Source: an uncultured Actinomycetes bacterium (GTDB taxonomy: Bacteria; Actinomycetota; Actinomycetes; Nanopelagicales; Nanopelagicaceae). Taken from it: a DNA stretch of 39,072 nt. The position numbers and the translations under genes are program-made. The DNA is taken from assembly GCA_903836945.1 (NCBI GenBank), contig CAILSO010000012.1, positions 1 through 39,072 on the forward strand. The letters are read 5' to 3'. Shown in pieces: positions 6,536 through 33,971 of the stretch; the first letter of the stretch is position 1; the number at the start of each line of letters is the position of its first letter. A model generated the notes under the pieces. That model made no database searches. It worked only from the letters and a program-made list of their open reading frames with translations, and was not told the origin of the DNA.

Positions 6536-6547
6536 GAGAGAAGGGTA
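6536..6547 (-). promoter_or_regulatory. Predicted leaderless -10 element of serine hydrolase gene
   Basis: On the minus strand TACCCT (6547-6542) is followed by six bases and the ATG at 6535. This is the same TANNNT-N6-ATG geometry seen at six plus-strand genes. No purine-rich ribosome-binding site is present. No clear -35 box. Confidence 0.5.
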
Positions 6548-6555
6548 TGTTGCCT

Positions 6556-6567
6556 TAGGCTAGGAGC
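6556..6567 (+). promoter_or_regulatory. Predicted leaderless -10 element of proA
   Basis: TAGGCT (6556-6561), six bases, then ATG at 6568. The AGGAG at 6562-6566 is only one base from the ATG, too close to act as Shine-Dalgarno. Only 32 bp separate this start from the divergent hydrolase start. Confidence 0.5.
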
Positions 6568-7836
6568 ATGGAAGCCACCGCGATAATTAATGAACTTGCC
6601 GATAAGGCGCGCTTGGCTGCGCGGACTTTAATCGCGGCAACCGGCGCCGAACGAAGCGCCGCGCTGGTGGCGATCGCCGAGGAAATATTAAAAAGTGAAG
6701 GCGAAATTCTGGCAGCCAATGCGCAAGATATGGTGCGCGCAAAGGCCGATGGTATGTCCGATTCAATGCAAGACCGATTGCTCTTAACCCCAAAGCGAGT
6801 CGCCGATATAGCTGATGGGGCAATTCAAGTTTCCAAATTGCCTAATCCAATTGGGCTGACGATTAATGAGAACCGCCTTCCAAATGGACTTCACCTAAAG
6901 CAAGTCAGCGTTCCATTTGGAGTTGTTGGAATGGTTTATGAAGCGCGACCAAATGTGACGGTGGATGCTGCGGTTATTTTGTTGATGTCGGCAAATGCGG
7001 CTCTGCTTCGCGGTTCTTCAAGCGCTGCGGAAAGCAATGAAGTTTTAGTTAAGGTGATGAAGCGAGCATTGGCCAAAACAAATATCTCTGCTGAAGTTTT
7101 ACAACTAGTCCCTTCACATGATCGTTCTACAGTCACAGCCTTACTGCATGCCAGAGGCAAGGTTGACTTAGTAATTCCACGGGGGAGCGCGGCCTTAATC
7201 CGGACCGTTGTTGATGAGAGCACTGTCCCAACAATTGAAACTGGCGCAGGTGTCTGCCATGTGTACGTAGATGATCAGGCCGATTTAACTAAAGCGCTTC
7301 CAATCTTGATCAACTCTAAAACCCACCGACCAAGTGTTTGTAATGCTGCAGAAACCTTGCTTGTGCATCAAGGTATCGCCGCGAAATTCTTGCCAATTGC
7401 ACTTAAGGCGCTTGCCGAAGCCGGTGTAACTCTAAATGTTGACGAGGCCACTAAGAAGTTTGCTGATGAAATTGGAGTCAAGGTCAACCTGGCAGGTGAA
7501 GAAAATTGGAGTACTGAGTACAACGCACTTGAGATGAATGTGGCGATTGTGCCAGATATTTTATCTGCGGCCGATCACATTGCTAAATATGGAACCAAGC
7601 ACACTGAAGCTATCGTCTCTGAATCAGAAGAAAATGCCGCAAAATTTATTTCACTTCTAGATGCCGCAGCAATTATGGTTAATGCATCAACCAGATTCAC
7701 TGATGGAGAACAGATGGGCTTCGGTGCTGAGATTGGAATCTCTAATCAAAAGCTCCACGCCCGCGGCCCAATGGGTCTTGTTGCCATGACCACTACGACT
7801 TGGATCGTAACTGGCAATGGGCAGATCCGCGCATAA
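6568..7836 (+). CDS. proA: Glutamate-5-semialdehyde dehydrogenase (gamma-glutamyl phosphate reductase)
   Basis: NADPH-dependent reduction of glutamyl 5-phosphate to glutamate 5-semialdehyde, second step of proline synthesis. The 422-residue protein has the ALDH-superfamily fold with the ProA signatures VPFGVVGMVYEARPNVTVDAA and ALLRGSSSA. The catalytic Cys is C258 in PSVCNAAETLLVH. The C-terminal ARGPMGLVAMTTTTWIVTGNGQ is typical. Length is normal. It is separated from its partner proB by the inverted hydrolase gene and appears to have its own leaderless promoter. Transcription probably ends before gatC, which has another promoter-like site 43 nt downstream. Confidence 0.97.
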   Translation: MEATAIINELADKARLAARTLIAATGAERSAALVAIAEEILKSEGEILAANAQDMVRAKADGMSDSMQDRLLLTPKRVADIADGAIQVSKLPNPIGLTINENRLPNGLHLKQVSVPFGVVGMVYEARPNVTVDAAVILLMSANAALLRGSSSAAESNEVLVKVMKRALAKTNISAEVLQLVPSHDRSTVTALLHARGKVDLVIPRGSAALIRTVVDESTVPTIETGAGVCHVYVDDQADLTKALPILINSKTHRPSVCNAAETLLVHQGIAAKFLPIALKALAEAGVTLNVDEATKKFADEIGVKVNLAGEENWSTEYNALEMNVAIVPDILSAADHIAKYGTKHTEAIVSESEENAAKFISLLDAAAIMVNASTRFTDGEQMGFGAEIGISNQKLHARGPMGLVAMTTTTWIVTGNGQIRA

Positions 7837-7867
7837 ATTCGATTTATTAGTAAGGACCGGCTCGCGA

Positions 7868-7879
7868 TAGAGTGCGCAC
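7868..7879 (+). promoter_or_regulatory. Predicted leaderless -10 element of gatC
   Basis: TAGAGT (7868-7873) followed by GCGCAC and the ATG at 7880. No Shine-Dalgarno sequence is present in the preceding 20 nt. This would start the gatCAB-ilvD transcript. Confidence 0.55.
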
Positions 7880-8176
7880 ATGGCACAAATTTCTCGCGAT
7901 GATGTTGCGCATCTAGCCAAATTAGCTCGCGTTGAAATGACGCCCGATGAGCTCGATCATATGGCTACCGAGTTGGATCAAATTCTTGGCGCAGTTAAGC
8001 GGGTACAAGAAGTTGCAACATCCGATATTGCCCCAACATCGCACCCACTTGAAATGACAAATATTTTTCGAGCCGATCTCGTAAAGCCAAGTCTGACAAA
8101 TGAAGAGGCTCTTTCAGGTGCACCCGCCAAGGCCGAGGAGCGCTTTAAGGTTCCACAAATTTTGGGTGAAGAATGA
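7880..8176 (+). CDS. gatC: Asp-tRNA(Asn)/Glu-tRNA(Gln) amidotransferase subunit C
   Basis: Small non-catalytic subunit that wraps around GatA and stabilises the GatCAB complex, which converts mischarged Glu-tRNA(Gln) or Asp-tRNA(Asn) to the amide form. The 98-residue product begins [24 protein letters not shown] and has the family's middle motif [13 protein letters not shown] and a C-terminal VPQILGEE, all canonical. It overlaps gatA by 4 nt (ATGA), indicating translational coupling. It is the first gene of gatC-gatA-gatB-ilvD. Confidence 0.96.
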
Positions 8177-9672
8177 CAAATATTCATTCATCCGCAGCAG
8201 AGATGGCGGCGGCACTTTCCAAGAACGAGACAACTTCGGTTGAATTGACCAAGTTACACCTTGATCAAATCTCAAAGGTTGATGGAAAAGTTCATGCATT
8301 TTTACATGTTGATACCGAAGGCGCTTTAGCGCAAGCTGCGGAAGTAGATGCCAAGCGTGCTAGTGGCGAACAAATCTCGCCACTTGCCGGAGTCCCACTA
8401 GCTCTTAAAGATGTTTTAACTCAAAAGGGAATCCCAACCACAGCCGGTTCAAAGATATTAGAAGGTTGGCGACCACCATACGATTCAACAGTTGTTTCAA
8501 AGTTGAAGGCAGCTGGCGTTGTGATTTTAGGTAAGACAAATATGGATGAATTTGCCATGGGATCATCAACCGAAAATTCTGCCTACGGAACAACGCAAAA
8601 TCCTTGGGACCTATCTCGAATTCCTGGCGGATCAGGCGGAGGTTCTGCCGCTGCGCTAGCTTCTTTTCAAGCACCACTTGCAATTGGTAGCGATACTGGT
8701 GGATCAATTCGTCAACCTGCGGCGTTAACCGGAACCGTCGGAGTTAAGCCGACCTATGGTGGCGTTTCAAGATATGGCGTTATTGCGTATTCATCTAGTT
8801 TGGATCAGATCGGACCATGCGCCCGAACTGTTTTAGATACCGCACTACTACATGAAGTTATCGCTGGCCATGATGAACGAGATTCAACAAGTATCAATGC
8901 GCCAGTCCCACAAGTTGTTGCTGCGGCGAAGAAATTAGATGTAAAAGGAATGAAGATTGGTGTCATCAAAGAATTAAACGGTGCTGGTTTTCAGGCTGGA
9001 GTAATTGAACGCTTTAATGAATCACTTGATTTGTTAGTTGCCAATGGTGCAGAAATCGTAGAAGTCTCTTGCCCTAACTTTGAGTATGCACTAGCTGCCT
9101 ACTATCTAATTGCACCATCTGAAGCATCTTCGAATTTAGCGCGCTTTGATTCAATGAGGTATGGCTTACGTGTTGGCGATGACGGCAAGCGTGGCGCTGA
9201 AGAAGTTATGAGTATCACCCGTGAGGCTGGCTTTGGTAAAGAAGTTAAGCGCCGCATAATCCTTGGTACGTATGCGCTTTCATCTGGTTATTACGATGCC
9301 TTTTACGGCTCGGCTCAGAAAGTGCGAACTCTGGTTAAGCAAGATTTTGATGCCGCATTCCAAATGGCTGATGTGTTGGTTTCTCCGGTAACTCCCACAA
9401 CCGCATTTAAAATCGGTGAAAAGAGCGATGATCCAGTTGCTATGTACTTAAGTGATATTGCAACAATTCCAGTGAATATGGCGGGCATCGGAGGAATGAG
9501 CCTTCCATGTGGCTTGGCGGCAGAAGATGGACTTCCAGTTGGCTTCCAAATCATGTCTCCGGTTATGCAAGATGATCGGATGTATCGAGTTGGTGCGACT
9601 CTTGAAGCAGCACTTGTAAGCAAATGGGGTAAGCCAATTCTCGCCAATGTTCCTGATCTAGGCGGTAAGTAA
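8173..9672 (+). CDS. gatA: Asp-tRNA(Asn)/Glu-tRNA(Gln) amidotransferase subunit A
   Basis: Amidase subunit that hydrolyses glutamine and passes ammonia to GatB. The 499-residue protein shows the amidase-signature triad: K79 in LALKDVLT, cis-Ser S154 in [11 protein letters not shown] and nucleophile S178 in [12 protein letters not shown]. The same numbering is found in Staphylococcus aureus GatA. The substrate-gating and C-terminal segments (ISLPCG-like [20 protein letters not shown]) are intact. Its stop shares one base with the gatB start (TAATG), and its ATG lies inside gatC, so the three subunits are coupled. Confidence 0.97.
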
Positions 9673-11171
9673 TGACTCTAGATTACGCAGCAGCGGTAGA
9701 AAAGTACGAGCCAACACTTGGCCTTGAAGTGCACGTTGAACTAAATACCAAATCAAAAATGTTCTGCTCTTGTGCAACGGAATTTGGAGCGCAACCAAAT
9801 ACCCAGACCTGCCCAGTTTGCCTTGGATTGCCCGGCGCACTTCCAGTTGTAAATGCGAAGGCGATCGAGAGCACAATTTTAATTGGGTTGGCACTAAATT
9901 GTTCGATCGCACCTTATAGTCGCTTTGCTCGAAAGAATTACTTTTATCCTGATATGCCAAAGAACTTCCAGACCTCGCAATACGACGAGCCAATCTGCGT
10001 TAATGGCTATTTAGATGTTGAGATTGAGACCGATGAAGGTCAAAAGACATTTCGGGTTGATATCGAACGCGTTCACATGGAAGAGGACACTGGAAAATCG
10101 CTACACGTTGGTGGTTCAACCGGACGTATTCATGGCGCCGAATATTCACTCCTCGACTACAACCGTGCCGGTATTCCACTAGTTGAAATCGTTACTCGAA
10201 TTGTTCCTGGCACTGGAAAATACGCACCACAAGTTGCTCGGGCATATGTGACTGAACTTCGTGACATCTTAAGATCACTTGGAGTTTCTGATGTAAAGAT
10301 GGAACAGGGATCACTTCGTTGTGATGCAAATGTTTCACTTGCACCTGTTGGTTCTGGAAAACTTGGTACTCGTAGTGAAACCAAGAATGTAAATTCACTT
10401 CGTTCGGTGGAGCGCGCGGTTTCTGGTGAAATCGAACGTCAAGCTAATCGCTTGGAAAATGGCGAACGTATTATTCAAGAGACTCGCCACTTCTTAGAAG
10501 AGAGCGGTGCGACAAGGCCTGGTCGCTCGAAGGAGCAGGCAGAGGATTACCGTTATTTCCCAGAACCGGATCTAGTTCCAGTTACTCCTGATGCAAAGTG
10601 GATTGAAGAACTTCGCACTCGTATCCCCGAGAAACCTTCATTACGAAGAAAGCGTCTACAAGCTGAATGGAATTGCCCAGATAAAGAGATGGAATCTCTG
10701 GTTAATGCCGAGTTGCTTGATGTCGTAGAAGAGACGATCAAACTTGGCGCTGAACCAACCCGCGCTAGAACTTGGTGGCTTGGCGAAATTTCTAGATTGG
10801 CAAATGAAAAGGAAGTTGCTCCTACCTCGCTCGTTAATGCAGTGCAGGTTGCTGAAGTAATTTCATTGATCGTTTCTGGTGAATTGACCGATAAGTTAGC
10901 GCGCCAAGTTGTCGAAGGCGTTATTGCCGGTGAAGGTTCACCTGCGCAAGTAATTGAGAAGCGCGGCCTCAAAGTTGTCTCTGATGATTCAGCGCTCATG
11001 AGCGCTATCGAAGCTGCCATTGCGGCCCAACCAGATACGGCAGAGCGTGTGCGCGGTGGAAATATCCCTGCCGCAGGCGCGCTTATCGGAGCGGTTATGA
11101 AGGCAACTGGTGGCGCAGCAGATGCAGCGAAGGTACGAGAATTATTGTTAAAGCACTTAGGTCAGGGGTAA
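9672..11171 (+). CDS. gatB: Asp-tRNA(Asn)/Glu-tRNA(Gln) amidotransferase subunit B
   Basis: Kinase and tRNA-binding subunit that activates the mischarged aminoacyl-tRNA with ATP and accepts ammonia from GatA. The 499-residue protein has the GatB N-terminal signature [20 protein letters not shown], a Zn-binding Cys set (CSC and CPVC within the first 60 residues) and [20 protein letters not shown]. The tail contains the YqeY-like tRNA-binding domain near 350-499. The ATG overlaps the gatA stop by one base. ilvD starts three bases after its stop codon. Confidence 0.97.
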
Positions 11172-11174
11172 TTG

Positions 11175-12851
11175 ATGAGTAATCCAATGAAGCCACGTTC
11201 CGGTTTGGTTACCGATGGCATGGAACGAGCACCAGCTCGTGGCATGTTGCGAGCAGTTGGAATGGGCGATGAAGATTGGGTCAAACCACAAATCGGTATC
11301 GCATCTTCTTGGAATGAAATCACACCATGCAATCTCTCATTAGATCGTCTAGCAAAAGCATCACGCAGAGGCGTCATCGATGCTGGCGGTTTTCCGATGC
11401 AATTTGGAACCATCTCCGTATCTGATGGAATTTCTATGGGCCATGAAGGTATGCACTTCTCATTAGTATCAAGAGAAGTAATTGCTGATTCGGTTGAGAC
11501 CGTTATGCAGGCAGAACGTTTAGACGGAATGGTTACCTTTGCTGGTTGCGACAAATCACTTCCAGGAATGATGATGGCGGCAGCTCGAATCGACGTGGCC
11601 TCAGTATTTGTTTACGCTGGCTCAACTCTTGCCGGAAATGTTGATGGCAAAGATGTGACAATCATTGATGCCTTTGAAGCGGTTGGCGCTTGTGCTCGTG
11701 GCTTAATTTCGCAGGAACAGGTTGATCGAATCGAACGCGCTATTTGTCCAGGTGAAGGTGCTTGTGGCGGTATGTACACCGCAAACACAATGGCTGCCGT
11801 TGGCGAAGCAATCGGACTTTCTCTTCCAGGTTCGGCATCACCTGCTGCAGTTGATCGTCGTCGCGATGATTATGCAGTTAAGTCAGGCGCCGCAGTTGTT
11901 GAATTAATTCGAAAAGGTATTACAACTCGCCAAATTCTTACCAAGAAGGCCTTTGAAAATGCGATTACCGTCGTAATGGCTCTTGGTGGATCCACTAACG
12001 CAGTTCTTCACCTACTTGCAATCGCAAATGAGGCGGAAGTTGATTTAACACTTGAAGATTTCCAACGTATTAGCGACAAGGTCCCACTACTTGGCGACCT
12101 AAAGCCTTTCGGTAAATATGTTATGACGGATATCGATCGCGTTGGCGGAATTCCGGTAGTGCTTCGCGCGCTCTTTGACGCTGGATATATTCATGGAGAT
12201 TGCTTAACCGTTACTGGTAAAACGATGGCGGAAAACTTAGCTGAACTAAAGCCGCTTGATCCAGATGGCGAAGTTTTGCATGCGATCAAGTCACCACTTT
12301 CTACTGGTGGTGGCATCACAATTCTTGGTGGAAGTTTGGCGCCAGAAGGTGCTGTTTGTAAGACCGCTGGAATTGGCGTTGAAGAATTTGAAGGACCGGC
12401 CCGCGTATTTGAGCGCGAGCAAGCTGCAATGGAAGCTCTAGAAAATGGAACTATTACCGCCGGCGATGTAATCGTCATTCGCTACGAAGGCCCAAAGGGT
12501 GGACCTGGAATGCGCGAAATGTTAATGATTACCGGTGCGATCAAGGGCGCTGGCTTAGGCAAGAGCACATTGCTATTAACCGATGGTCGCTTTAGCGGTG
12601 GATCTACCGGATTGTGTGTTGGCCACGTGGCGCCAGAGGCAGTAGATGGCGGCCCAATTGCATTTGTAAAAGATGGCGATCGAATTCGCATCGACACAAT
12701 CACCAGAAAACTTGATCTATTGGTCGACGAATCTGAACTGGCCGAACGGCGCAAGAACTTCCAACCAATTCCGCACAAATACAAGCGTGGGGTCTTGGCC
12801 AAGTATTCAAAGGTCGTTGGATCAGCATCAAAGGGAGCGGTCTGCGGCTAA
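11175..12851 (+). CDS. ilvD: Dihydroxy-acid dehydratase
   Basis: Fe-S dehydratase converting 2,3-dihydroxy-isovalerate and -methylvalerate to the 2-keto acids of valine and isoleucine. With the ATG at 11175 it has 558 residues, the usual length. Cluster and metal ligands are visible: C125 in AGCDKSLPG and C191/C197 in [21 protein letters not shown] (11164-11168) lies six bases before the ATG. An upstream TTG at 11172 is in frame but is one codon longer without benefit. It follows gatB by 3 nt and so belongs to the gat transcript. The rest of its pathway starts 200 bp downstream behind an attenuator. Confidence 0.96.
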
Positions 12852-12908
12852 AGCCTTTAAGCCGATCTTCATGGGGGATTCCAGATAATGAGATCCTCAT
12901 CTCAACCC

Positions 12909-12943
12909 TTGACTAGCCTCTTTCACTAGGCGAGAATTCACCT
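12909..12943 (+). promoter_or_regulatory. Promoter of the ilv operon, leaderless with respect to leader peptide
   Basis: TTGACT (12909-12914), a 17-bp spacer and GAGAAT (12932-12937) form a near-consensus sigma-70-type promoter. The -10 element ends six bases before the ATG of the leader peptide, so transcription should begin at or next to that ATG. This is the only site in the window where a good -35 box accompanies the -10/ATG spacing. Confidence 0.7.
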
Positions 12944-12982
12944 ATGACATCAGTCGTGGTTATTGGCGAGCGTGCGCTCTAG
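12944..12982 (+). CDS. ilvB operon leader peptide (MTSVVVIGERAL)
   Basis: A 12-codon ORF, ATG to TAG, with three consecutive Val codons and an Ile codon (12953-12964), followed by a hairpin and a terminator. This is the layout of ribosome-mediated attenuation, known for ilvB leaders in Actinobacteria. Its stop codon sits at the top of the first hairpin's left arm. The peptide itself should have no function: stalling at Val/Ile codons when charged tRNA is scarce would control read-through into ilvB. It has no ribosome-binding site and probably starts at the transcript's 5' end. Confidence 0.75.
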   Translation: MTSVVVIGERAL

Positions 12983-13001
12983 TACTAACTAGAACGTACG
13001 C
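12970..13001 (+). promoter_or_regulatory. Attenuator hairpin 1 (pause stem) of ilv leader
   Basis: GCGTGCGCTCTAG (12970-12982) pairs with CTAGAACGTACGC (12989-13001) around the loop TACTAA, with 12 of 13 positions paired including one G-U. The left arm overlaps the last leader-peptide codons, so a ribosome stalled at the Val-Val-Val-Ile codons would interfere with its formation. Confidence 0.7.
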
Positions 13002-13002
13002 C

Positions 13003-13035
13003 ACCCCTCAGTGCAAACTGAGGGGTTTCGCATTT
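13003..13035 (+). terminator. ilv attenuator terminator
   Basis: A perfect 10-bp stem, ACCCCTCAGT (13003-13012) and ACTGAGGGGT (13017-13026), with a GCAA tetraloop, is followed by TTCGCATTTATT. The U-tract is interrupted, which suits a conditional rather than absolute terminator. It lies between the leader peptide and the ilvB Shine-Dalgarno. Confidence 0.75.
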
Positions 13036-13060
13036 ATTAGATAGAAGGGAGATGAACAAG

Positions 13061-14809: not shown

Positions 14810-14810
14810 A

Positions 14811-20156: not shown

Positions 20157-21743
20157 ATGATGAATGACAACTTTCATATCTATGACACCACTCTTCGTGA
20201 TGGGGCGCAGCAAGAGGGCTTAAACCTCTCAGTCCATGACAAGTTAGCAATTGCCCGTCACCTAGATGATCTTGGTGTTGGCTTTATTGAAGGTGGTTGG
20301 CCCGGAGCTAATCCAAAAGATACCGAATTTTTTAAGCGAGCGGCTACCGAACTTAAATTAAAGAACGCAACCTTTATGGCCTTTGGTGCAACTCGTCGGC
20401 CAGGAGTTAATGCAGCTGATGACCCGCTACTTCGAGCACTTGCAGATTCTGGCGCGGCCGGAGTGACCCTTGTGGCAAAGAGCCATGATCGCCATGTTGA
20501 TTTAGCCTTGAAGACAAATCTTGATGAGAACTTGGCGATGATTCGCGATTCGATTGAATTTTTACGCAAGGGTGGACAGCGCGTATTTCTAGATGCCGAA
20601 CATTTCTTTGACGGTTATAAATCAAATAAGGCTTATGCCCTTGAAGTAGTCCGCGTTGCTGCCGAAGCTGGCGCAGATGTAATTGCACTTTGTGACACCA
20701 ACGGGGGCATGTTGCCTGATGAACTTTCACAAGTTGTACATGATGTCTTAAGAGCTTCAAGCGCCCGACTTGGAATTCATTGCCACAATGACACTGGTTG
20801 CGCCGTTGCTAATTCACTTGCCGCAATCGCCGCTGGTGCAACTCACGTGCAAGGCACATTAAATGGTTACGGTGAACGCACTGGTAATGCTGATCTTGTA
20901 AGTATTATTGCCAATCTGGAATTGAAGAAGAAGCAACAGGTACTACCTACCGGCGCACTTCGTGAAGCTTTTCGTATTTCACATGCCGTTGCAGAAGTTA
21001 CAAATGTTGCCCCAAGTGCTCGCCAACCATATGTTGGAGTTTCGGCATTTGCTCACAAAGCTGGGCTGCACGCGAGTGCAATCAAGGTCGATCCGGCAAT
21101 GTACCAACACGAAGATCCAGCTTCTGTTGGAAACGATATGCGGATGCTGGTTTCAGAGATGGCGGGCCGAGCATCTATTGAATTGAAATCCAAAGAACTT
21201 GGCATCGCACTTGGTGAAGATAAGGAAGTTGTCACCCGCGTTGTAGCAAAGGTAAAAGATTTAGAGTCACAGGGTTATACCTTTGAAGCGGCTGATGCCT
21301 CATTTGAATTATTGTTGCGCGAAGAGATTGATGGAAAGCGGGCTAGCTTCTTTAAGGTGGAAAACTGGGATACCACCGTAAGTCGCGATAAAAATAACTT
21401 AGTTACATCAAAGGCATTTCTAACAATTTCTGCCGGCTCAAAATTAATTGAGTCCGAAGGTTCTGGAAATGGTCCAGTTAACGCAATTGATACAGCACTG
21501 CGTTCGGGACTTGAAACGGTTTATCCAGAATTAGCAAAGCTTGAATTAACTGACTACAAGGTTCGAATCCTGGAAGGTCGCCTCGGAACTGGCGCGATTA
21601 CTCGCGTCTTGGTTGAGACCAGCGATGGCACCGGGGAGTGGAGCACAATTGGGGTCCACGAAAATGTTATTGCTGCATCTGTGATGGCCCTTGAAGATGC
21701 GGTCACATATGGCTTGCTAAGACAAGGCCGCAAACCCGAGTAA
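20157..21743 (+). CDS. cimA: (R)-citramalate synthase
   Basis: Condenses pyruvate and acetyl-CoA to citramalate, opening the threonine-independent route to 2-ketobutyrate and isoleucine. The 528-residue protein belongs to the citramalate-synthase branch of the LeuA/homocitrate synthase family. Its N-terminus IYDTTLRDGAQQEGLNLSV, the run GFIEGGWPGANPKDTEFF and metal-site GIHCHNDTGCAVANSLAA are more like CimA than LeuA. A C-terminal regulatory dimer domain is present (about 385-528). Two adjacent ATGs exist (20157 and 20160). AAGG at 20149-20152 is seven bases from the second, so either is possible. Substrate choice rests on family resemblance. Last gene of the ilv operon. Confidence 0.9.
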   Translation: MMNDNFHIYDTTLRDGAQQEGLNLSVHDKLAIARHLDDLGVGFIEGGWPGANPKDTEFFKRAATELKLKNATFMAFGATRRPGVNAADDPLLRALADSGAAGVTLVAKSHDRHVDLALKTNLDENLAMIRDSIEFLRKGGQRVFLDAEHFFDGYKSNKAYALEVVRVAAEAGADVIALCDTNGGMLPDELSQVVHDVLRASSARLGIHCHNDTGCAVANSLAAIAAGATHVQGTLNGYGERTGNADLVSIIANLELKKKQQVLPTGALREAFRISHAVAEVTNVAPSARQPYVGVSAFAHKAGLHASAIKVDPAMYQHEDPASVGNDMRMLVSEMAGRASIELKSKELGIALGEDKEVVTRVVAKVKDLESQGYTFEAADASFELLLREEIDGKRASFFKVENWDTTVSRDKNNLVTSKAFLTISAGSKLIESEGSGNGPVNAIDTALRSGLETVYPELAKLELTDYKVRILEGRLGTGAITRVLVETSDGTGEWSTIGVHENVIAASVMALEDAVTYGLLRQGRKPE

Positions 21744-21752
21744 TCTTTAAGT
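21741..21752 (+). promoter_or_regulatory. Predicted leaderless -10 element of xerC
   Basis: TAATCT (21741-21746) overlaps the cimA stop codon and is followed by TTAAGT and the ATG at 21753. No Shine-Dalgarno is present. Confidence 0.5.
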
Positions 21753-22652
21753 ATGACCGCCGAGTTGATTGTTCAGTATGAAGAACACCTCGCGTTGGTA
21801 CGAAACCTTGCTGATAATTCGATTCGTGGTTACGTCTCAGATTTGCAGTCTTTTCTAAACCATATTGAAAAACTAGGTATAACTGAATTCGCAGATCTAG
21901 ATATCACCCACATCCGATCGTGGTTGGCTAATTTGCAAAGTACTGGCGCATCTAGATCAACAATGGCGCGACGAATAGTTTCAATTAGAGCTTTCACATA
22001 TTGGGCAGCGAGCCAAGGTTGGATCCCAACCGATATCGGGGCGAAACTAGCAATCCCAAAGGCCCACAAAACCTTGCCTGAAGTACTGTCACAAAAGGAG
22101 ACACAACTAGTACTTCAATCCTTAATAACTAAGCGGATGGAGGAGCCGACGGCGCTAAATATTCGAGACTTGGCGATGGTTGAAATTCTTTATGCTGCGG
22201 GAATTCGCGTTAGTGAATTGTGCGGTTTGAATTTAGGTGATTTTGATAGTTCTAGAAATACCTTGCGAGTAATAGGTAAGGGAGATAAAGAGCGAGTAGT
22301 GCCACTTGGAATCCCAGCGGTCAAGGCGCTAAATGAATGGGTCAGTATTGCTCGTCCGGAATTTGTTTTAGGTAGTTCAATGAATGCAACATTTTTAGGT
22401 TCCCGTGGAAAGCGAATTGATCAACGAACGGTTAGGGAAGTTGTTTATCAAGCAATGTCAGCTATTGGATCTCACATGAGCCCGCATGGTTTGCGCCATA
22501 CCGCCGCTACGCACTTATTGGAGGGTGGCGCAGATTTGCGCACGGTTCAGGAGATCTTGGGACATTCATCTTTGGCCACGACTCAGATTTACACCCACGT
22601 CTCGCCGGAGCGATTGAAGTCTGCTTATTCACAGGCCCATCCGCGGGCTTAA
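21753..22652 (+). CDS. xerC: Site-specific tyrosine recombinase XerC
   Basis: Host recombinase that resolves chromosome dimers at dif with XerD. The 299-residue protein has an N-terminal SAM-like core-binding domain (LVRNLADNSIRGYVSDLQSF) and the catalytic domain with the complete set R152 (AAGIRVSEL), K176 (IGKGDKERVVP), H245/R248 (HGLRHTAATHLLEGG), H271 (LGHSSLATTQIYTHV) and nucleophile Y280. Size and position directly upstream of rpsB match actinobacterial XerC and argue against a phage or integron integrase. XerD is not in the window. dif was not seen. Confidence 0.93.
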   Translation: MTAELIVQYEEHLALVRNLADNSIRGYVSDLQSFLNHIEKLGITEFADLDITHIRSWLANLQSTGASRSTMARRIVSIRAFTYWAASQGWIPTDIGAKLAIPKAHKTLPEVLSQKETQLVLQSLITKRMEEPTALNIRDLAMVEILYAAGIRVSELCGLNLGDFDSSRNTLRVIGKGDKERVVPLGIPAVKALNEWVSIARPEFVLGSSMNATFLGSRGKRIDQRTVREVVYQAMSAIGSHMSPHGLRHTAATHLLEGGADLRTVQEILGHSSLATTQIYTHVSPERLKSAYSQAHPRA

Positions 22653-25972: not shown

Positions 25973-25990
25973 ACCTTCGATAAATTTAAG

Positions 25991-26839
25991 ATGGATGATC
26001 TGCATTCGATTAACGAAGCGATAAATGCCCGTGCTGGGCGCAAACTTCTTCCATCAATAATCGTCTCAGTAATTCTATTGACCTTGGTATTTACCACTGT
26101 GGTTTTTGCCAAACCTGTATTTGGTCTTCTAGTTTGGTTAGCCGTCATGTTGGCTATCCGTGAATTAGTAAATGCCTACAAGCTTGGCGGAATCGAACTT
26201 CCAAGGCTGGCAATACAAATTGCCGGAACCGCGCTTTTGATCGCTGCTTGGTATGGAAAAGTCTCTGGCCTAGCCGTTGCTACAGCTATTGCGATTCCAA
26301 ATGTGATGGTCTTTATTCTCTTTAAAGGTCCAAAGGATTTCGTCCGACGTGCGGCATCTGCCGCCTTTGCCGTCTTCTATCTAGCATTTCTCGGTGGCTT
26401 TATTATTTTGCTGGCACATCACTCTGATGGAGCTGCTCGAATTTTAACCTTAGTAGTTTTAGTAAGTTGCAACGATACCTTTGGATATATCTCAGGAGTT
26501 CTTTTCGGTAAGCACCCATTAGTTCCGGCAATTAGTCCCAAGAAAACTTGGGAGGGTCTACTTGGCTCTTTTATCTTTACTCCATCTGGTTCGGCTCTGG
26601 TATTCCACTTTGCGATGCATAAGCATTGGTGGATTGGTGCCGGCATTGGAATCGTTGCCGTCATAACCGCAACCTGCGGCGATTTGATCGAATCTGCAGT
26701 TAAGCGTGACCTTTCTATAAAAGATATGGGAACTCTGCTACCTGGACATGGTGGAATTTTGGACCGGATCGATTCCGTCTTATTTACCGGGCCGGCAGTT
26801 TGGTTCGCCCTCGAACTTATTACCCACTTTAAACTATGA
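25991..26839 (+). CDS. cdsA: Phosphatidate cytidylyltransferase (CDP-diglyceride synthase)
   Basis: Integral membrane enzyme forming CDP-diacylglycerol from phosphatidate and CTP, the branch point of phospholipid synthesis. The 282-residue protein has several hydrophobic segments (starting [20 protein letters not shown] at about 20-40). The family signature lies at about residues 235-262: [20 protein letters not shown] followed by GILDRIDS. The start has no Shine-Dalgarno. TAAATT at 25981-25986 is four bases from the ATG, so the start mode is uncertain. It lies 18 nt after frr and overlaps rlmN by 4 nt. Confidence 0.95.
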
Positions 26840-27951: not shown

Positions 27952-29375
27952 AAAACCTCCAAAACTTTATCGCTGGCAAGAGCCAAGCCTCCCTTTCTGG
28001 TCAGACAAGTGAAGTAATTAATCCAGCTACTGGTCAGGCTTATGCAACAGCTCCAATTTCAACAAGCGCCGATATTGATCTGGCGATGGACGCAGCAAGT
28101 AAAGCTTTTGAGGATTGGCGAGATTCGACCCCATCAGAGCGTGCGCGGGCGCTACTAAAGATTGCCGATGGACTTGAATCTCGAAGTGAAGAATTAATTG
28201 CAATCGAGAGTGAAAATACCGGCAAACCACTTTCGCTAACTGCATCCGAAGAAGTTCCCCCAATGTTGGATCAAATTAGATTCTTTGCTGGTGCTGCTAG
28301 AAATTTAGAGGGTAAATCTGCGGGCGAATATATGCGCGGCATGACCTCATTCATTCGCCGCGAACCAATTGGCATATGCGCGCAAGTTACTCCTTGGAAT
28401 TATCCGATGATGATGGCGGTATGGAAGTGGGCGCCGGCGATCGCTGCTGGAAATACTGTAGTTCTAAAGCCAAGTGACACAACTCCTGCCTCTACCTTAT
28501 TTATGGCAGAAGTTATGTCTGAGTTCCTCCCAACCGGCGTCTTTAATGTGATTTGTGGCGATCGCGAAAGTGGAAGAGCGTTAGTAGAACATGCCACGCC
28601 ATCCATGGTTTCGATTACTGGTTCGGTTCGCGCTGGAATTGAAGTAGCAAAGTCGGCCGCTTTGGATGTAAAGCGGGTACACCTAGAGCTCGGTGGAAAG
28701 GCACCCGTAGTTGTATTTGCTGATGCAGATCTTGCAGCTGCGGCGGAAGCGATTGCAATTGCTGGCTATTTCAACGCCGGCCAAGATTGCACAGCTGCAA
28801 CTCGCGTGATTGTGCAAGAAGAAGTTTATGAAGAATTTGTCGCACTTCTTGCGGCGCAAGCTAAAGACAATATCGCTACAGGTGCGCCGAATGAAAATGT
28901 GCTTTATGGCCCAGTAAATAATGCGGCGCAATTAGCAAGAGTTCAGGGATTCCTAGAACGCACCCCTTCGCACGCGCAGATCGTGGCGGGTGGAACCAAG
29001 GTTGATCGAGCCGGATATTTCTTTAATCCAACTGTTGTTGCCGGATTAACTCAAAGCGATGAGATGATTCAAAATGAAATCTTTGGGCCGGTAATCACCG
29101 TCCAAAAATTTAAGGATGAAGCACAAGCCGTTGCATATGCAAATGATGTTCCGTATGGCTTGGCCTCTAGTGTTTGGACTACCAATCATGGGCGCGCGAT
29201 GCGCATGGCTAAGGCATTTGATTTTGGCTGTGTCTGGATCAATACCCACATTCCACTTGTCGCCGAGATGCCACATGGCGGCTACAAGCGTTCTGGTTAT
29301 GGCAAAGATCTTTCTTCATATGGATTCGAGGATTACACCCGAATTAAGCATGTGATGACAAATCTAAATGCCTAA
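27948..29375 (+). CDS. Aldehyde dehydrogenase, gamma-aminobutyraldehyde dehydrogenase-like
   Basis: NAD(P)-dependent oxidation of an aldehyde to an acid. The 475-residue ALDH has the general base E247 in LELGGKAP, the nucleophile C281 in [15 protein letters not shown] and the cofactor-loop [19 protein letters not shown]. The GQDCTA context is typical of the aminobutyraldehyde dehydrogenase (PatD/YdcW-like) group, so 4-aminobutanal or 4-guanidinobutanal are plausible substrates. Betaine-aldehyde type activity cannot be excluded. It overlaps rlmN by 4 nt and precedes an agmatinase-family gene by 42 nt, which supports a role in agmatine/putrescine breakdown. Confidence 0.88.
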
Positions 29376-29405
29376 CTTCAATTAAGTTTTAGCGCTCCCA
29401 TAAAC

Positions 29406-29417
29406 TAGAGTTAAGCC
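29406..29417 (+). promoter_or_regulatory. Predicted leaderless -10 element of ureohydrolase gene
   Basis: TAGAGT (29406-29411), TAAGCC, ATG at 29418. The same hexamer TAGAGT is used at gatC with the same six-base spacing. No Shine-Dalgarno. Confidence 0.55.
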
Positions 29418-30416
29418 ATGGCAAATATAGGAAATATGTATGGTCCAGATTTCACCTTCCTGGGCATACCTCGTTGCGACCTAGAAAAGCCCGAAACTTT
29501 CTCCGGCGCCGATGTAGTAATCGTTGGGGCTCCAATTGATAGCGGCACCTCCCATCGATCTGGCGCAAAGCATGGACCACAAGCGATCCGCGCTGGTGAT
29601 TACTTGGCTCATGATGGCGAACGACCACATATGTCGATGCGCGTAGATTCGCTAAAAGAGTTAAAGATCTTTGATGCCGGTGATCTTTTAATGCCAGGTG
29701 GCGATCTAGTCTCTTCGCTTAAAGTTTTAGAAGTTGCAACTGAGAAGATCTCGCGCGCTGGCGCCATCCCAGTAGTACTTGGCGGCGATCATTCAATCGC
29801 ATCAGCCGATATTGCAGGTATTGCCAAGCACCGCGGCGCGGGCAAAATTTCAATGATTCACTTTGATGCGCATGCCGATACTGCCGATCTGCAATTTGGC
29901 GCGCTAGTTGGACACGGAACACCAATGCGCATGCTGATCGATAGCGGGGCAGTGCGGGGAGATCGCTTCCTGCAACTAGGTCTTCGTGGCTATTGGCCAG
30001 ATGATGCGACCCTTAAATGGATGCGCGATCAGGGAATGCGTTCATATGAAATGACCGAAATTCATCATCGTGGATTAACCGCGGTCTTAGATGAATCATT
30101 TGCCACTCTCACAAATGAATGCGATGGCGTTTTTCTCTCAGTCGATATTGATGTCGTTGATCCAGGAATGGCGCCAGGGACTGGAACTCCAGAACCAGGT
30201 GGAATGACGAGCCGCGAACTTCTAGAGGCAGTTCGCAGAATCTGTTTTGAACTCCCGATAGTTGGAATGGATATTGTTGAAGTGGCTCCGGCATATGACA
30301 GCGCGGAGATCACAGCAATCTTGGCCAATCGCGTTGTTCTGGAAGCACTTAGTGCAATCACGCTTCGCAAAAAGGGTGGAACTTATTCACCTACTCGAAA
30401 TTTATTGGATCGGTAG
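29418..30416 (+). CDS. speB: Agmatinase-family ureohydrolase
   Basis: Binuclear Mn enzyme that removes urea from a guanidino compound. The 332-residue protein holds all six metal ligands: H125 in GGDHSI; D150, H152 and D154 in HFDAHADTADL; D243 and D245 in SVDIDVVDPGMAPGTG. PEPGGMTSRELLEAV follows as usual. Agmatine (to putrescine) is the default assignment, but guanidinobutyrase and guanidinopropionase share the same motifs, so the symbol is provisional. The upstream aldehyde dehydrogenase fits either a putrescine route or a 4-guanidinobutyrate route to GABA. It has a leaderless-type start and lies 13 nt before dxr. Confidence 0.85.
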   Translation: MANIGNMYGPDFTFLGIPRCDLEKPETFSGADVVIVGAPIDSGTSHRSGAKHGPQAIRAGDYLAHDGERPHMSMRVDSLKELKIFDAGDLLMPGGDLVSSLKVLEVATEKISRAGAIPVVLGGDHSIASADIAGIAKHRGAGKISMIHFDAHADTADLQFGALVGHGTPMRMLIDSGAVRGDRFLQLGLRGYWPDDATLKWMRDQGMRSYEMTEIHHRGLTAVLDESFATLTNECDGVFLSVDIDVVDPGMAPGTGTPEPGGMTSRELLEAVRRICFELPIVGMDIVEVAPAYDSAEITAILANRVVLEALSAITLRKKGGTYSPTRNLLDR

Positions 30417-30429
30417 CGGCAAAAGCTAA

Positions 30430-31569
30430 ATGCGCGAGATTGTAATTCTTGGCTCTACTGGTTCTATCGGCGTACAAGCGCTTGAAATAGTTGCGGCAAA
30501 TCCAGATAAGTTTCGAGTTATTGGACTCGCAGCCGGTTCCAAAAACTTACCTTTATTAATTGAGCAGGCTCGTAAATTTAAAGTACCGGTCATCGCTTCT
30601 ACTGCAGATGGGGCAAGTGCTCGTGAGTTAGCCGGTGAGATTAAAGTAATTGATGGCCCAAATGCCGCCAGCGAACTTGCAACTCTGCCATGCGAAATAG
30701 TTTTAAACGGAATCACCGGATCTATCGGCTTGGCCCCAACTCTGGCCGCCCTCGGCGTTGGAAATAAAGTTGCTTTAGCAAATAAGGAATCTTTGGTCGC
30801 AGGTGGCGACTTGGTTATGGCCTTTGGCCGCGACAAGTTGATTCCAGTCGATTCCGAACACTCTGCGCTCTATCAATGTTTTCTAAGTGGCAAGGAATTT
30901 GAGGTTAAGCAAGTTGTACTTACAGCAAGCGGCGGCCCATTTAGAGACCGAAATGATTTATCAGATATCACCGTTGAAGAAGCTTTGGCTCATCCAACTT
31001 GGTCTATGGGACCAGTCGTAACTATTAATTCTGCAACACTTATGAATAAGGGTTTAGAAATAATTGAAGCGCATTACCTATTTGATCTGCCGTATTCAAA
31101 AATTTCTGCAGTAATTCACCCACAATCTGTTGTTCACTCCATGGTGGAATTTATCGATGGTTCAACGATTGCCCAGGCCAGTCCACCAAACATGAAAGGC
31201 CCGATCGCCTACGCACTCTCTGGCGCCAATCGAATTAGTAAGGCAACCACGCCTATTGATTGGAGCGCCACCCACACATGGAGTTTCTCACCGATTGATC
31301 AAGCTCGCTTTCCGGCTGTTGACCTGGCCCGCCGTTGCGGAGAACTTGGTGGTGGACTTCCAGCAATATTTAATGCGGCTAATGAGGTCGCTGTCAATGC
31401 CTTCATCAATGGGGCAATAGCATTCACTCAGATTGTGGAAATAGTCGAAGAATGTGTACAACTTCTAGGAAGTGGTGCACCGATAACCATCAGAGACCTA
31501 TCTGATGTCAGTGCTATCGAGAATGATGCACGTGTTCGGGCCAGCAAACTAGTTCAGGAGCGTGCATGA
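30430..31569 (+). CDS. dxr: 1-deoxy-D-xylulose-5-phosphate reductoisomerase
   Basis: NADPH-dependent conversion of DXP to MEP, the committed step of the non-mevalonate isoprenoid pathway. The 379-residue protein begins MREIVILGSTGSIGVQALEI (Rossmann) and has ALANKESLVAGGD, the metal/substrate segment PVDSEHSALYQC and TLMNKGLEIIEAHYLF. Length is normal. The ATG has neither a Shine-Dalgarno nor a TANNNT box at the expected place, so it probably depends on read-through from the ureohydrolase gene 13 nt upstream. It overlaps the next gene by ATGA. Confidence 0.96.
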   Translation: MREIVILGSTGSIGVQALEIVAANPDKFRVIGLAAGSKNLPLLIEQARKFKVPVIASTADGASARELAGEIKVIDGPNAASELATLPCEIVLNGITGSIGLAPTLAALGVGNKVALANKESLVAGGDLVMAFGRDKLIPVDSEHSALYQCFLSGKEFEVKQVVLTASGGPFRDRNDLSDITVEEALAHPTWSMGPVVTINSATLMNKGLEIIEAHYLFDLPYSKISAVIHPQSVVHSMVEFIDGSTIAQASPPNMKGPIAYALSGANRISKATTPIDWSATHTWSFSPIDQARFPAVDLARRCGELGGGLPAIFNAANEVAVNAFINGAIAFTQIVEIVEECVQLLGSGAPITIRDLSDVSAIENDARVRASKLVQERA

Positions 31570-32756
31570 GTTTTCTCGGAGTAATTGCCTTTGTAGTAGC
31601 ACTTCTATTTTCAGTAATGGTCCACGAAGCGGGCCACTTCTTAACCGCCAGACATTTTCATATGAAGGTAACCGAATTTTTTCTTGGTTTCGGCAAGCGA
31701 ATCTGGTCCTTTAAGCGCGGTGAGACTGAATTTGGAATAAAGGCCATTCCTGCGGGCGGTTACTGCCGCATCGTTGGTATGTCGGTAACCGAAGAAGTAT
31801 CCGATGAAGATCGACCACGATCTTTTTATTTAGCCTCAGCACCAAAACGACTCATCGTTCTTGGGGCTGGCTCTTTCCTTCACTTCGTACTTGGGTTCTT
31901 AATTTTAGTTATTTTGTTGGCAGGCGTAGGCACCACTTCAGTTACCAATACTGTCGGAACAGTTAGTCAGTGCTTAAGCACAGATGCTTCTGGAAAGTGT
32001 GCGCCAGGGGCGCAAATTCCACCGGCAAAGAAGGCTGGAATCCAAGCCGGCGACAAGATAATTGCGATCAATGGCAAGAAGATTAATCTGTGGAGCGATG
32101 CGGTTTCCACGATTAGAAATTCACCAAATAAGCAATTAACTCTCACGCTCGAACGTGCCGGAAGCAATCTAGATATTTCACTGACTCCCGAAGCTCATCT
32201 ATTAAATGGCAAGAGCGTTGGCTTTATTGGTGTGCAAAATAAGATGGGAAATGTTCGCCTCTCATTGCTAAAAAGTTTGAGCAACAGCACAACTTTGACT
32301 GGACAATTGATGAAGAGCAGCGTGAGTTCCCTCTTCTCCCTCCCAACAAAGATTCCGGCACTAGTGCGCCAAACATTTGGCCACGAGAAGCGCGATGCAA
32401 GTGGCTTAGTTGGGGTAGTGGGAGTTGCTCGGGTCAGCGCGCAAACTGCAAGTGATCCAAAGCTTGCCACTCCTGAAAAGATCGCCACATTCCTAGTTAT
32501 TATCGCGAGCTTAAATATTTTTGTTGGTGTCTTCAATCTCTTTCCACTGCTACCACTAGATGGTGGGCATATGGCAGTGGCCTTGGCAGATGGCATAAGG
32601 CGCCAATGGGCCCGAATTCGAAAGAAGGCGCTACCCGATCCGATCAATGTCGAACGATTAATGCCAGTAACAATCGTAGTTTTTGCCCTCTTGGCCGTAC
32701 TTTCCCTCTTGCTCTTGGCGGCCGATATCTTCCATCCGATAAATATCAGCCAATAA
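31566..32756 (+). CDS. Site-2 protease (Rip1/RseP-type intramembrane zinc metalloprotease)
   Basis: Membrane-embedded M50 protease that cleaves transmembrane anti-sigma factors. The 396-residue protein has HEAGH at 20-24 in the first membrane helix and the third metal ligand in PLDGGH at about D332. A single PDZ domain lies between them (AGIQAGDKIIAINGKKINLW, about 150-220). Four hydrophobic segments are visible. The position between dxr and ispG is the mycobacterial rip1 context, so regulated intramembrane proteolysis of sigma-factor antagonists is the likely role. Its targets are not in this window. It is coupled to dxr by ATGA. Confidence 0.93.
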   Translation: MSFLGVIAFVVALLFSVMVHEAGHFLTARHFHMKVTEFFLGFGKRIWSFKRGETEFGIKAIPAGGYCRIVGMSVTEEVSDEDRPRSFYLASAPKRLIVLGAGSFLHFVLGFLILVILLAGVGTTSVTNTVGTVSQCLSTDASGKCAPGAQIPPAKKAGIQAGDKIIAINGKKINLWSDAVSTIRNSPNKQLTLTLERAGSNLDISLTPEAHLLNGKSVGFIGVQNKMGNVRLSLLKSLSNSTTLTGQLMKSSVSSLFSLPTKIPALVRQTFGHEKRDASGLVGVVGVARVSAQTASDPKLATPEKIATFLVIIASLNIFVGVFNLFPLLPLDGGHMAVALADGIRRQWARIRKKALPDPINVERLMPVTIVVFALLAVLSLLLLAADIFHPINISQ

Positions 32757-32758
32757 TC

Positions 32759-32770
32759 TAGGATACTTCT
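32759..32770 (+). promoter_or_regulatory. Predicted leaderless -10 element of ispG
   Basis: TAGGAT (32759-32764), ACTTCT, ATG at 32771. No ribosome-binding site. It starts two bases after the site-2 protease stop codon. Confidence 0.55.
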
Positions 32771-33922
32771 ATGGTCAATCTGGGAATGCCAAGCGCACCA
32801 CTACCTACTCTTGCCCCTCGCAGGAAGAGCAAGCAATTAAAAGTAGGAAATGTATTAGTGGGTGGAGATGCACCAGTCAGTGTGCAATCTATGTGTACGA
32901 CCCTTACCGCGGATGTAAATAGCACGCTGCAACAGATCGCCGAATTAACTGCATCTGGCTGTCAGATTGTTCGTGTTGCTGTTCCAAGTCAAGATGATGC
33001 CGATGCCCTTTCCCAGATCGCCAAGAAATCGCAGATCCCAGTTATTGCCGATATTCATTTTCAACCAAAATATATATTTGCAGCGATTGATGCTGGTTGC
33101 GCCGCGGTTCGAGTTAACCCCGGCAACATTAAACAATTTGATGACAAGGTAAAGGAAGTTGCAAAGGCAGCCGGCGATGCCGGGATCCCAATTCGAATTG
33201 GTGTAAATGCCGGCTCACTTGATCCACGCCTCTTGGCTAAATATGGCAAGGCAACTCCAGAAGCGCTGGCCGAATCGGCACTTTGGGAGGCATCTCTTTT
33301 TGAAGAGCATGGCTTTACTGATATAAAAATCTCAGTTAAGCATCATGATCCAGTAACCATGGTTCAGGCTTATCGACTCTTGGCAAGTAAATGTGATTAT
33401 CCATTGCACTTAGGAGTAACCGAAGCCGGTCCCTTCTTCCAAGGAACCATTAAATCTGCAACCGCATTTGGAATTTTATTATCAGAAGGTATCGGCGACA
33501 CGATCCGAGTATCACTTTCAGCACCTCCAGTTGAAGAAGTTAAGGTTGGAATTTCAATTCTAGAATCCTTAAATCTTCGCCAACGCAAATTAGAAATCGT
33601 CTCTTGCCCTTCTTGTGGTCGCGCCCAAGTTGATGTTTACACATTGGCAGAGAAAGTTCAGGCAGGTCTTCAAGGAATGACTGTTCCGCTGCGCGTTGCA
33701 GTAATGGGTTGTGTTGTAAATGGTCCTGGTGAGGCACGCGAAGCCGATCTTGGAGTTGCATCAGGAAATGGCAAGGGACAAATCTTTGTTAAGGGTGAGG
33801 TAATCAAGACCGTTCCAGAAGCACAGATTGTTGAGACACTGATCGAAGAGGCGATGCGTTTGGCTGATGAGATGGAAGCTGCTGGCGCCGCTAGCGGAAC
33901 TCCAACCGTCACCGCAAGTTAG
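32771..33922 (+). CDS. ispG: 4-hydroxy-3-methylbut-2-en-1-yl diphosphate synthase (GcpE)
   Basis: 4Fe-4S enzyme that converts MEcPP to HMBPP, the penultimate step of the MEP pathway. The 383-residue protein has a TIM-barrel half with [15 protein letters not shown] and [16 protein letters not shown]. Cluster ligands are C279 and C282 in [11 protein letters not shown] and C314 in [16 protein letters not shown], with the Glu that follows. Together with dxr it brings two MEP genes around the site-2 protease, as in mycobacteria. It appears to have its own leaderless start as well as possible read-through. Confidence 0.96.
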
Positions 33923-33959
33923 CCCAAGAAATCTTGAAAAATATCGCCAGATAATTAGA

Positions 33960-33971
33960 TAAGGTAAAGAC
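33960..33971 (+). promoter_or_regulatory. Predicted leaderless -10 element of proS
   Basis: TAAGGT (33960-33965), AAAGAC, ATG at 33972. TTGAAA at 33934-33939 is a -35-like hexamer but 20 bp away, longer than ideal. Confidence 0.5.

Follow-up and report, generated by a model that had tools for sequence, protein, structure and literature searches.

The 39,072-nucleotide stretch of DNA analysed here (the window) carries several genes in which a hexamer TANNNT is followed by exactly six bases and then the ATG. This raises the question of whether the mRNAs of such genes begin at the start codon itself. A sequence-only reading had named seven of these genes and suggested widespread leaderless transcription. 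All seven hexamers were located at the places it gave; as predicted −10 boxes, they are as follows.

6542..6547, minus strand: TACCCT, gene of a beta-lactamase-fold hydrolase (Pfam PF00144), start codon at 6535
6556..6561, plus strand: TAGGCT, proA; opposed to the hydrolase box over a gap of 32 bp
7868..7873, plus strand: TAGAGT, gatC
21741..21746, plus strand: TAATCT, xerC; begins with the TAA that terminates the citramalate synthase gene (20157-21743)
29406..29411, plus strand: TAGAGT, ureohydrolase (agmatinase-like) gene
32759..32764, plus strand: TAGGAT, ispG
33960..33965, plus strand: TAAGGT, proS

Position and conservation of the hexamer

The seven genes make up one fifth of the 35 genes called in the window (binomial p ~2e-7 at a 1.2% background). 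The discovery sample comprised 574 kb of the source genome, which belongs to a small actinobacterium of freshwater type and is Nanopelagicaceae-like, 1.26 Mb in size and ~47% GC, and the hold-out comprised 229 kb from other stretches of the same genome. Among the first ATG or GTG starts of the discovery sample, TANNNT occupied positions −12 to −7 (spacing N6) in 94 of 428, whereas the other offsets averaged 5.0 each. The enrichment at this position, on which the earlier proposal depended, was replicated in the hold-out (36/170 starts, background 2.4), and the genomes of two relatives gave 34/170 (G009) and 43/234 (G019). When the longest-ORF starts of all codons were taken instead, the hexamer preceded 84 of 444: 65/293 ATG, 18/78 GTG and only 1/73 TTG starts, so that TTG is avoided. 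The chance rate of one in 64 assumed by the sequence-only reading was close, the measured rate being a little lower, at ~1.2% per offset and 0.3% at in-frame internal ATGs (7/2529).

The boxes of the window are kept in orthologs while their flanks drift. The hydrolase box has the N6 spacing in 51 of 55 ortholog loci and the proS box in all 16 own-genus rows, window included. For xerC, 15 of the 17 own-genus rows, including the window, show N6 and two show N7; for ispG, N6 was found in 13 of 16 such rows, again with the window, the remaining three having CAGAAT-N6. The ureohydrolase box is more variable (N6 in seven and N7 in seven of 18 rows, window included). Over 94 ortholog loci of proA, N6 occurs in 38 and N7 in 26, and over 89 loci of gatC the counts are 38 for N6, 29 for N7, 19 for N8 and three without a box; the closest loci hold N6 in 20 of 21 and 14 of 14 cases, respectively. 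The sequence pattern, its position and conservation, its distribution in the lineage and its dependence on gene context, described below, are direct observations.

Probable promoter character of the hexamer

Substitutions within the hexamer were examined at 127 head genes that lack a TANNNT hit. The variant [ACG]ANNNT at −12 was found at 22 of them (7.0 expected) and was replicated at 10 of the 49 non-hit heads of the hold-out (2.4 expected), the excess being weaker in G009 (8/62, 3.7 expected). Neither TANNN[ACG] (five, 8.0 expected) nor T[CGT]NNNT (five, 7.2 expected) was enriched among the 127. The hexamers follow the −10 rule of SigA/sigma-70, in which A at −11 and T at −7 are essential and T at −12 is tolerant of change. 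A pyrimidine stands at −1 in 78 of 102 hits versus 64 of 181 in-operon non-hits. As had been claimed, most boxed genes are without a usable Shine-Dalgarno sequence: the 4-mers occur at 12 of 102 hits, which is background (nine in the control region), compared with 41 of 127 non-hit heads.

Among the predictions of leaderless transcription tested at the sequence level, only the −35 element failed to appear. A TTGACA-like element accompanies 21 of 102 hits in ordinary leaderless promoters, with 10-20 in shifted windows, and is not enriched; in most cases, therefore, the hexamer with its three fixed bases would be the sole promoter element. An SRN motif preceding the −10 box, as in Mycobacterium tuberculosis, is only weakly apparent, both in the discovery sample (both positions in 39/102 hits and 32/127 non-hit heads) and in the hold-out (12/37 and 10/49). 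The third base of the box (−10) is G or A in 70 of the 102 pooled hits. At first starts G was counted 41 times, A 26, C eight and T eight, and at later starts C ten times, T six, A two and G one; the purine preference, for which an in-frame stop at −12 was considered as the cause, partly reflects the choice of the first start, an ascertainment effect.

About one fifth of the sampled genes have a promoter box that ends exactly six bases ahead of the start codon, so their mRNA very probably begins with that codon. We regard it as highly probable that the hexamer is a −10 element of the sigma-A-type housekeeping class and that transcription starts at the first nucleotide of the start codon. The polymerase would require A−11 and T−7, accept a non-T at −12 and usually act without a recognisable −35, and it would start six bases downstream of the box, on a purine that follows a pyrimidine. 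With +1 so placed, the 5′ end of the mRNA would be AUG or GUG, without leader or Shine-Dalgarno sequence, and such an mRNA would presumably be loaded straight onto the ribosome. The position of +1 and the mode of translation are what we infer from the DNA. The proposal of widespread leaderless transcription thus gains support from the positional enrichment, the −10 rule, the pyrimidine at −1, the purine-first start codons and the background level of Shine-Dalgarno motifs, together with the orthologs and with the operon dependence and the box before rnpB considered below.

Alternative readings, rnpB, ilvB and rne

The hexamers might instead be −10 boxes of transcripts with a short leader, +1 lying 1 to 5 nt from the ATG, or a second promoter upstream might make the main, leadered transcript. 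The N7 and N8 spacings of gatC and proA orthologs in other genera point in this direction, since in those genera +1 need not fall on the A. The gene for RNase P RNA, rnpB, which is untranslated, was used as a control. TANNNT begins 13-21 bases before the start of the RNA model in all 16 full-length loci (seven of the own genus, nine of other families). Six bases beyond the box, a purine (A) stands in only three of the seven own-genus loci, with T in three and C in one, and adding three partial loci gives a purine in 6/10; an exact N6-purine start is consequently not visible there. In addition, 155 of the 1,099 leaderless genes reported for M. smegmatis have leadered transcripts too (PMC6448022). 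Nevertheless, a short or alternative leader seems unlikely: N6 dominates in the own genus (94 versus 13 at N7 in the discovery sample, over a background of five), the −1 pyrimidine and the purine-first start codons fit +1 on the start codon, and Shine-Dalgarno motifs stay at background.

A translation signal, such as an A/T-rich landing site for the ribosome that is no promoter at all, would account for the fixed distance to the start codon, the replacement of the Shine-Dalgarno sequence and the missing −35. It should, however, be independent of operon position, and the hexamer is found at 44 of 95 divergent genes, 27 of 103 same-strand genes with a gap above 40 nt and 28 of 209 with a gap of 40 nt or less. 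Nor would it predict the A−11/T−7 rule or the −1 pyrimidine, and the box before rnpB would be unexpected. Further, the ilvB leader has a full promoter, a TTGAC element 17/18 bp from its box, at an equal distance to the ATG, and a translation signal is therefore very improbable. Chance matches in upstream DNA rich in A/T, or a bias from taking the first ATG, have only the small seven-gene sample in their favour and can practically be discounted, as a single offset stands out (Poisson p ~3e-83 in the discovery sample and 1e-29 in the hold-out), orthologs retain the box between drifting flanks, and the pattern is present at non-first candidate starts (19/302 at −12, 1-7 at other offsets).

Two further genes with G in the first position of the hexamer, the ilvB leader and possibly rne, had been proposed to share the N6 spacing. 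The relevant features are listed here.

12909..12914, plus strand: TTGACT, predicted −35 box of the promoter for the ilvB leader, separated from the −10 box by 17 bp
12932..12937, plus strand: GAGAAT, predicted −10 box for the ilvB leader, with a non-T at −12
12944..12982, plus strand: putative leaderless leader-peptide ORF MTSVVVIGERAL, with branched-chain codons
13004..13028, plus strand: GC-rich hairpin with a short run of T after it, read from the sequence as a probable attenuator terminator before ilvB (13052)
142..146, plus strand: GAGGA before rne (start 154), a Shine-Dalgarno sequence and not a −10 box

The first proposal was borne out: GAGAAT appears to be a true −10 box, as a five-of-six match to TTGACA at 17-18 bp accompanies it at all 52 loci, counting that of the window, and this −35 element was seen at the ilvB leader only. 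A leader ORF rich in V/I/L lies upstream of ilvB in 51 of the 52 loci searched, and comparable hairpins are visible before ilvB in a number of relatives. The region 12944-13028 has the layout of an ilvB attenuator, a V/I/L-rich leader ORF and then a predicted intrinsic terminator; an Rfam search of the window returned no family at gathering score anywhere. The suggestion concerning rne was rejected: among 16 orthologs, TANNNT at N6 or N7 occurs in none and AGGA within −20 to −5 in 15.

Use of the motif, possibly fused signals and known systems

The motif had been offered as a predictor of start sites and operon heads. It serves this purpose moderately: it is commonest at divergent genes, but it recovers 71 of 198 head genes (36%; perhaps 43% if weak variants are added), and 28 of the 99 hits with a known neighbour follow a gene on the same strand at a distance of no more than 40 nt. 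At gene pairs with a gap of 9 nt, the TAA or TAG that closes the upstream gene can double as the opening triplet of the −10 box downstream; a single stop codon would then end a protein and start an mRNA. Such reuse was found in 10 of 12 pairs of the source genome and in 2/3 (G009), 2/4 (G019), 0/1 (G020) and 0/1 (G028) pairs of relatives, none significant alone. Leaderless promoters also stand face to face, 22-59 bp apart. Divergent pairs with both genes leaderless are not in excess over the single-gene rate (12/46, ~9.9 expected; hold-out 4/21, ~3.4 expected). A single −10 box common to two divergent leaderless genes (CAT-N6-TANNNTA-N6-ATG) was sought and rejected, with one match in the own sample, one in relatives and no excess over other spacings.

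Tentatively, and with somewhat less than even confidence, these cases may reflect a streamlined lineage in which the −10 box is fused with neighbouring coding signals such as stop codons. Divergent genes could likewise be served by two opposed −10 boxes touching or overlapping within ~10-20 bp, and the tight N6 would have become fixed in this lineage from a looser spacing rule of 6-8 nt.

Both the leaderless idea and the TANNNT motif were previously published for Actinobacteria (Zheng et al. 2011, PMC3160421; Cortes et al. 2013, PMC3898074), TA-led starts having been proposed by Zheng et al. as the mark of leaderless genes. Their results section on these motifs, which does not name Nanopelagicaceae, associates TAnnnT with high-GC groups and TAtaaT with groups of 40-60% GC, whereas the source genome, at ~47% GC, keeps the degenerate TANNNT. 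The data of Cortes et al. on M. tuberculosis are similar in the TANNNT −10 box, the lack of a conserved −35 and the purine at +1, and likewise in C as the commonest base at −1, in about a quarter of the genes with a primary start being leaderless, and in closely juxtaposed divergent promoters, one pair with both mRNAs leaderless; the starts were measured there by RNA and are deduced here from DNA. In M. smegmatis, 79% of promoters are reported to have ANNNT, TANNNT is stronger than VANNNT and 24% are leaderless (PMC6448022); the same rule of fixed A and T with an optional first T, RNA-measured there, was recovered here in another lineage. The leaderless promoters described for Streptomyces lividans TK24 have A in 94.5%, the last T in 97.4% and the first T in just 63.8%, with a mean −10 to +1 distance of 6.3, a leaderless IlvL leader peptide and only ATG and GTG starts (PMC8079986). 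They differ in a distance range of 4-9, compared with the strong N6 dominance here, and in possessing a −35, which is not enriched here except at ilvB. The actinobacterial ilvB attenuators of PMC1262725, PMC10272879 and PMC11857589 also place a branched-chain leader peptide and a terminator before ilvB, although in another lineage and with different leader peptides; in Corynebacterium glutamicum, the transcript starts a single nucleotide away from the start codon of the leader.

What is new here, if anything, may be the lineage detail: the tight N6, the stop-reusing −10 boxes and the spacing of the face-to-face promoters. A reliable +1 from DNA alone would permit start-codon correction, promoter calls and the recognition of internal promoters in many metagenome-assembled genomes. 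The promoters embedded in stop codons suggest that in these small genomes the operons may be split up further than the distances between genes would indicate.

Position and nature of the TANNNT box

The window is contig 12 of a draft genome of 1.26 Mb (56 contigs, 90% complete, 47.1% GC). NCBIfam models support the assignments of proA, gatC, the XerC-type recombinase, the agmatinase-like ureohydrolase, ispG, proS, rne and ilvB, and by Pfam PF00144 the hydrolase on the minus strand has a beta-lactamase fold. The hexamers that the sequence-only reading had placed at −12 to −7, leaving six bases before the start codon (N6), were found exactly as written upstream of all seven genes (the hydrolase, proA, gatC, xerC, the ureohydrolase, ispG and proS) when read from the window sequence.

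Genes were predicted with a simple caller based on codon log-odds and non-overlapping ORFs. The discovery sample comprised the window and 37 further stretches (574 kb, 45% of the genome), and the hold-out consisted of 20 additional stretches (229 kb) from this genome, retrieved once the counting rules were already in use. Genes cut by contig ends were left out, as were, in later counts, those with no ATG or GTG candidate. At longest-ORF starts of the discovery sample, TANNNT was present at −12 in 84/444 cases, against 1–14 at each other offset from −40 to −6; by start codon, it preceded 65/293 ATG, 18/78 GTG and 1/73 TTG. Among internal in-frame ATGs, 7/2529 had it at −12. The predicted positional enrichment was borne out at first ATG/GTG starts, with 94/428 at N6 against a background of 5.0 per offset (102/428 if any plausible start is counted), and in the hold-out, with 36/170 against 2.4.

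Five properties point to the putative TANNNT-N6 box being a promoter, not a ribosome site. Hits were distributed as 44/95 divergent genes, 27/103 same-strand genes with gaps above 40 nt and 28/209 closer same-strand genes. Shine-Dalgarno 4-mers were at background in hits (12/102 vs 9 in the control region) and raised outside them (41/127 non-hit operon heads, 53/181 non-hit starts inside operons). A pyrimidine at −1 was found in 78/102 hits, 60/127 non-hit heads and 64/181 in-operon starts, and in 28/37, 28/49 and 31/77, respectively, in the hold-out. A−11 and T−7 are the key bases of the −10 element. Heads lacking TANNNT were enriched in [ACG]ANNNT at the box position (22/127 vs 7.0; hold-out 10/49 vs 2.4) and showed no enrichment of boxes without A−11 or T−7. 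Measured motifs from M. smegmatis (PMC6448022) and from S. lividans (PMC8079986) show the importance of these two bases.

The RNase P RNA gene, rnpB, is never translated. In 16/16 full-length rnpB loci (seven of the own genus, own genome included, and nine of other families), TANNNT started 13–21 bases upstream of the RNA model start. The own-genome copy has TATTCT, six bases and A, but the base at that place in the seven own-genus loci was mixed (A in three, T in three, C in one), which counts against an exact rule; three more own-genus loci with partial matches, read by eye, all had A. Genome G006, of the same genus, carries two above-cut-off matches to RNase P RNA on one contig, separated by about 8 kb:
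G006 contig 19, 9350–9705: RNase P RNA match (L192) with its own upstream TANNNT box
G006 contig 19, 1178–1529: RNase P RNA match (L208) with its own upstream TANNNT box

Conservation among relatives

The N6 share of first starts was 22.0% in the own genome (hold-out 21.2%), 20.0% in G009 (same genus), 18.4% in G019 (another genus of the family), 12.5% in G028 (another family, 1.4 Mb) and 4.2% in G020 (same family, 2.2 Mb). Small samples gave 6/63 for G006 and 6/43 for G023 (same family), and three 71%-GC genomes together gave 5/205. The N6:N7 ratio was 164:27 in the own genome, hold-out and G009 vs 8:8 in G020 and the three 71%-GC genomes (Fisher p 0.0015), a comparison with small numbers that left out G006 (6:3) and is affected by the weaker performance of simple gene calling at high GC.

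Removal of duplicates left 99 of 109 proA-region loci. The hydrolase box was at N6 in 51/55 relatives, at N7 in 2/55 and missing in 2/55; for proA the counts were 38/94 N6, 26/94 N7 and 30/94 neither, and for gatC 38/89 N6, 29/89 N7, 19/89 N8 and 3/89 none. Among the closest relatives N6 was kept in 14/14 (hydrolase), 20/21 (proA) and 14/14 (gatC). No box occurred at the homologous start of the control genes proB (0/70), gatA (0/89), gatB (0/72), obgE (0/61), ilvB (0/51) and ilvD (0/62). Nearby starts had it in two gatB cases and, as TANNNT-N6, in 36/62 ilvD relatives, so that some members of the family may have a leaderless ilvD. The window's own ilvD stands directly behind gatB and has no box.

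In own-genus alignment rows, window included, N6 was found in 16/16 for proS, 13/16 for ispG (the remaining three with CAGAAT-N6) and 15/17 for xerC (N7 in 2/17); the ureohydrolase had N6 in 7/18 rows and N7 in 7/18. Other-family rows mostly lacked the box at the homologous site (xerC 0/7, ispG 0/11, proS 0/3), partly because starts there misalign. These ortholog counts indicate that within the genus the putative box is conserved and its flanks drift, and that exact N6 is a trait of the genus more than of the family.

The ilvB leader and rne

Two doubtful cases concern boxes beginning with G. The rne motif, GAGGAT, did not hold as a −10 element: none of 16 orthologs has TANNNT at N6 or N7, and 15/16 have AGGA within −20 to −5, which makes it a Shine-Dalgarno sequence. 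The ilvB leader peptide, MTSVVVIGERAL, starts at 12944 and its GAGAAT box gained support:
window 12909–13028: ilvB attenuator leader, predicted, complete; TTGACT-17-GAGAAT-N6-ATG, leader peptide, terminator hairpin

TTGAC was found 17 or 18 bp upstream of the box in 52/52 loci, window included; shifted control windows reached four or more matches in 0–7/52. In most loci the box reads GAGAAT or GACAAT, and N6 or N7 separates it from the leader ATG. Because a NANNNT box was favoured when this ATG was picked, the −35 counts as independent evidence and the −10 does not; the 52 loci are also related to one another. The promoter is kept in 51 relative loci, and the sequence is a predicted leaderless attenuator leader. 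The 12909–13028 segment falls below every Rfam gathering score. A leaderless leader of this kind has also been reported from S. lividans (PMC8079986), and C. glutamicum has a nearly leaderless one (PMC11857589). Many of the 52 rows have a TCTCA stretch immediately ahead of the −35.

Boxes in compact ARRANGEMENTS

Boxes embedded in stop codons and pairs of face-to-face boxes were both encountered. At a gap of 9 nt, the upstream gene's TAA or TAG forms the first half of the next gene's putative −10 box at the following places:
window 21741–21753: TAA stop of the citramalate synthase gene as the first half of the xerC box, TAATCT
fetched stretches L013, L023, L029, L037, L306, L311, L319 and L324: the same arrangement

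In all eight same-strand pairs of the discovery sample with a gap of exactly 9 nt the upstream gene ends in TAA or TAG, and a T completes TARNNT in 6/8 vs 43/169 at other gaps (p 0.006); the hold-out gave 4/4 vs 9/55 (p 0.0016), the own genome combined 10/12 vs 52/224, and the own genome with G009 and G019 14/19 vs 83/368. Nine of the ten own-genome cases had a family match (XerC, aconitase, EamA transporter, PASTA kinase, glycosyltransferase, DNA ligase, MFS-thymidylate kinase, alanine dehydrogenase and exonuclease VII small subunit); L013 had none at 1e-5. The gene at L311:7218-9245 (+) encodes a single 676-aa protein with an MFS-type membrane domain and then a fused thymidylate kinase domain.

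Both genes were predicted to be leaderless in 12/46 divergent pairs of the discovery sample and 4/21 of the hold-out, no more often than single-gene rates predict in these samples. Gaps were 22–59 bp in 10 of the 16 pairs; in one of 22 bp (L018) a TA is common to both boxes, and in one of 25 bp (L324) the boxes are one base apart. The 32-bp gap between the hydrolase and proA (window 6536–6567) contains two opposed putative −10 boxes, and its length and both N6 spacings are retained in 22 relative loci. Simultaneous binding of both polymerases there is implausible, so transcription of the two genes may compete.

Among the open-licence papers listed by the searches, no title or abstract opening dealt with leaderless transcription in Nanopelagicales or with stop codons that double as −10 boxes. 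Leaderless-aware gene finding exists in GeneMarkS-2 (described in PMC9581028). Leaderless TANNNT starts were predicted in 2011 for about 20% of actinobacterial genes (PMC3160421), and measurements of leaderless transcripts exist for M. tuberculosis (PMC3898074), for M. smegmatis (PMC6448022) and for S. lividans (PMC8079986). Such starts are already known from Actinobacteria, and this Nanopelagicales genome is very probably a further example.
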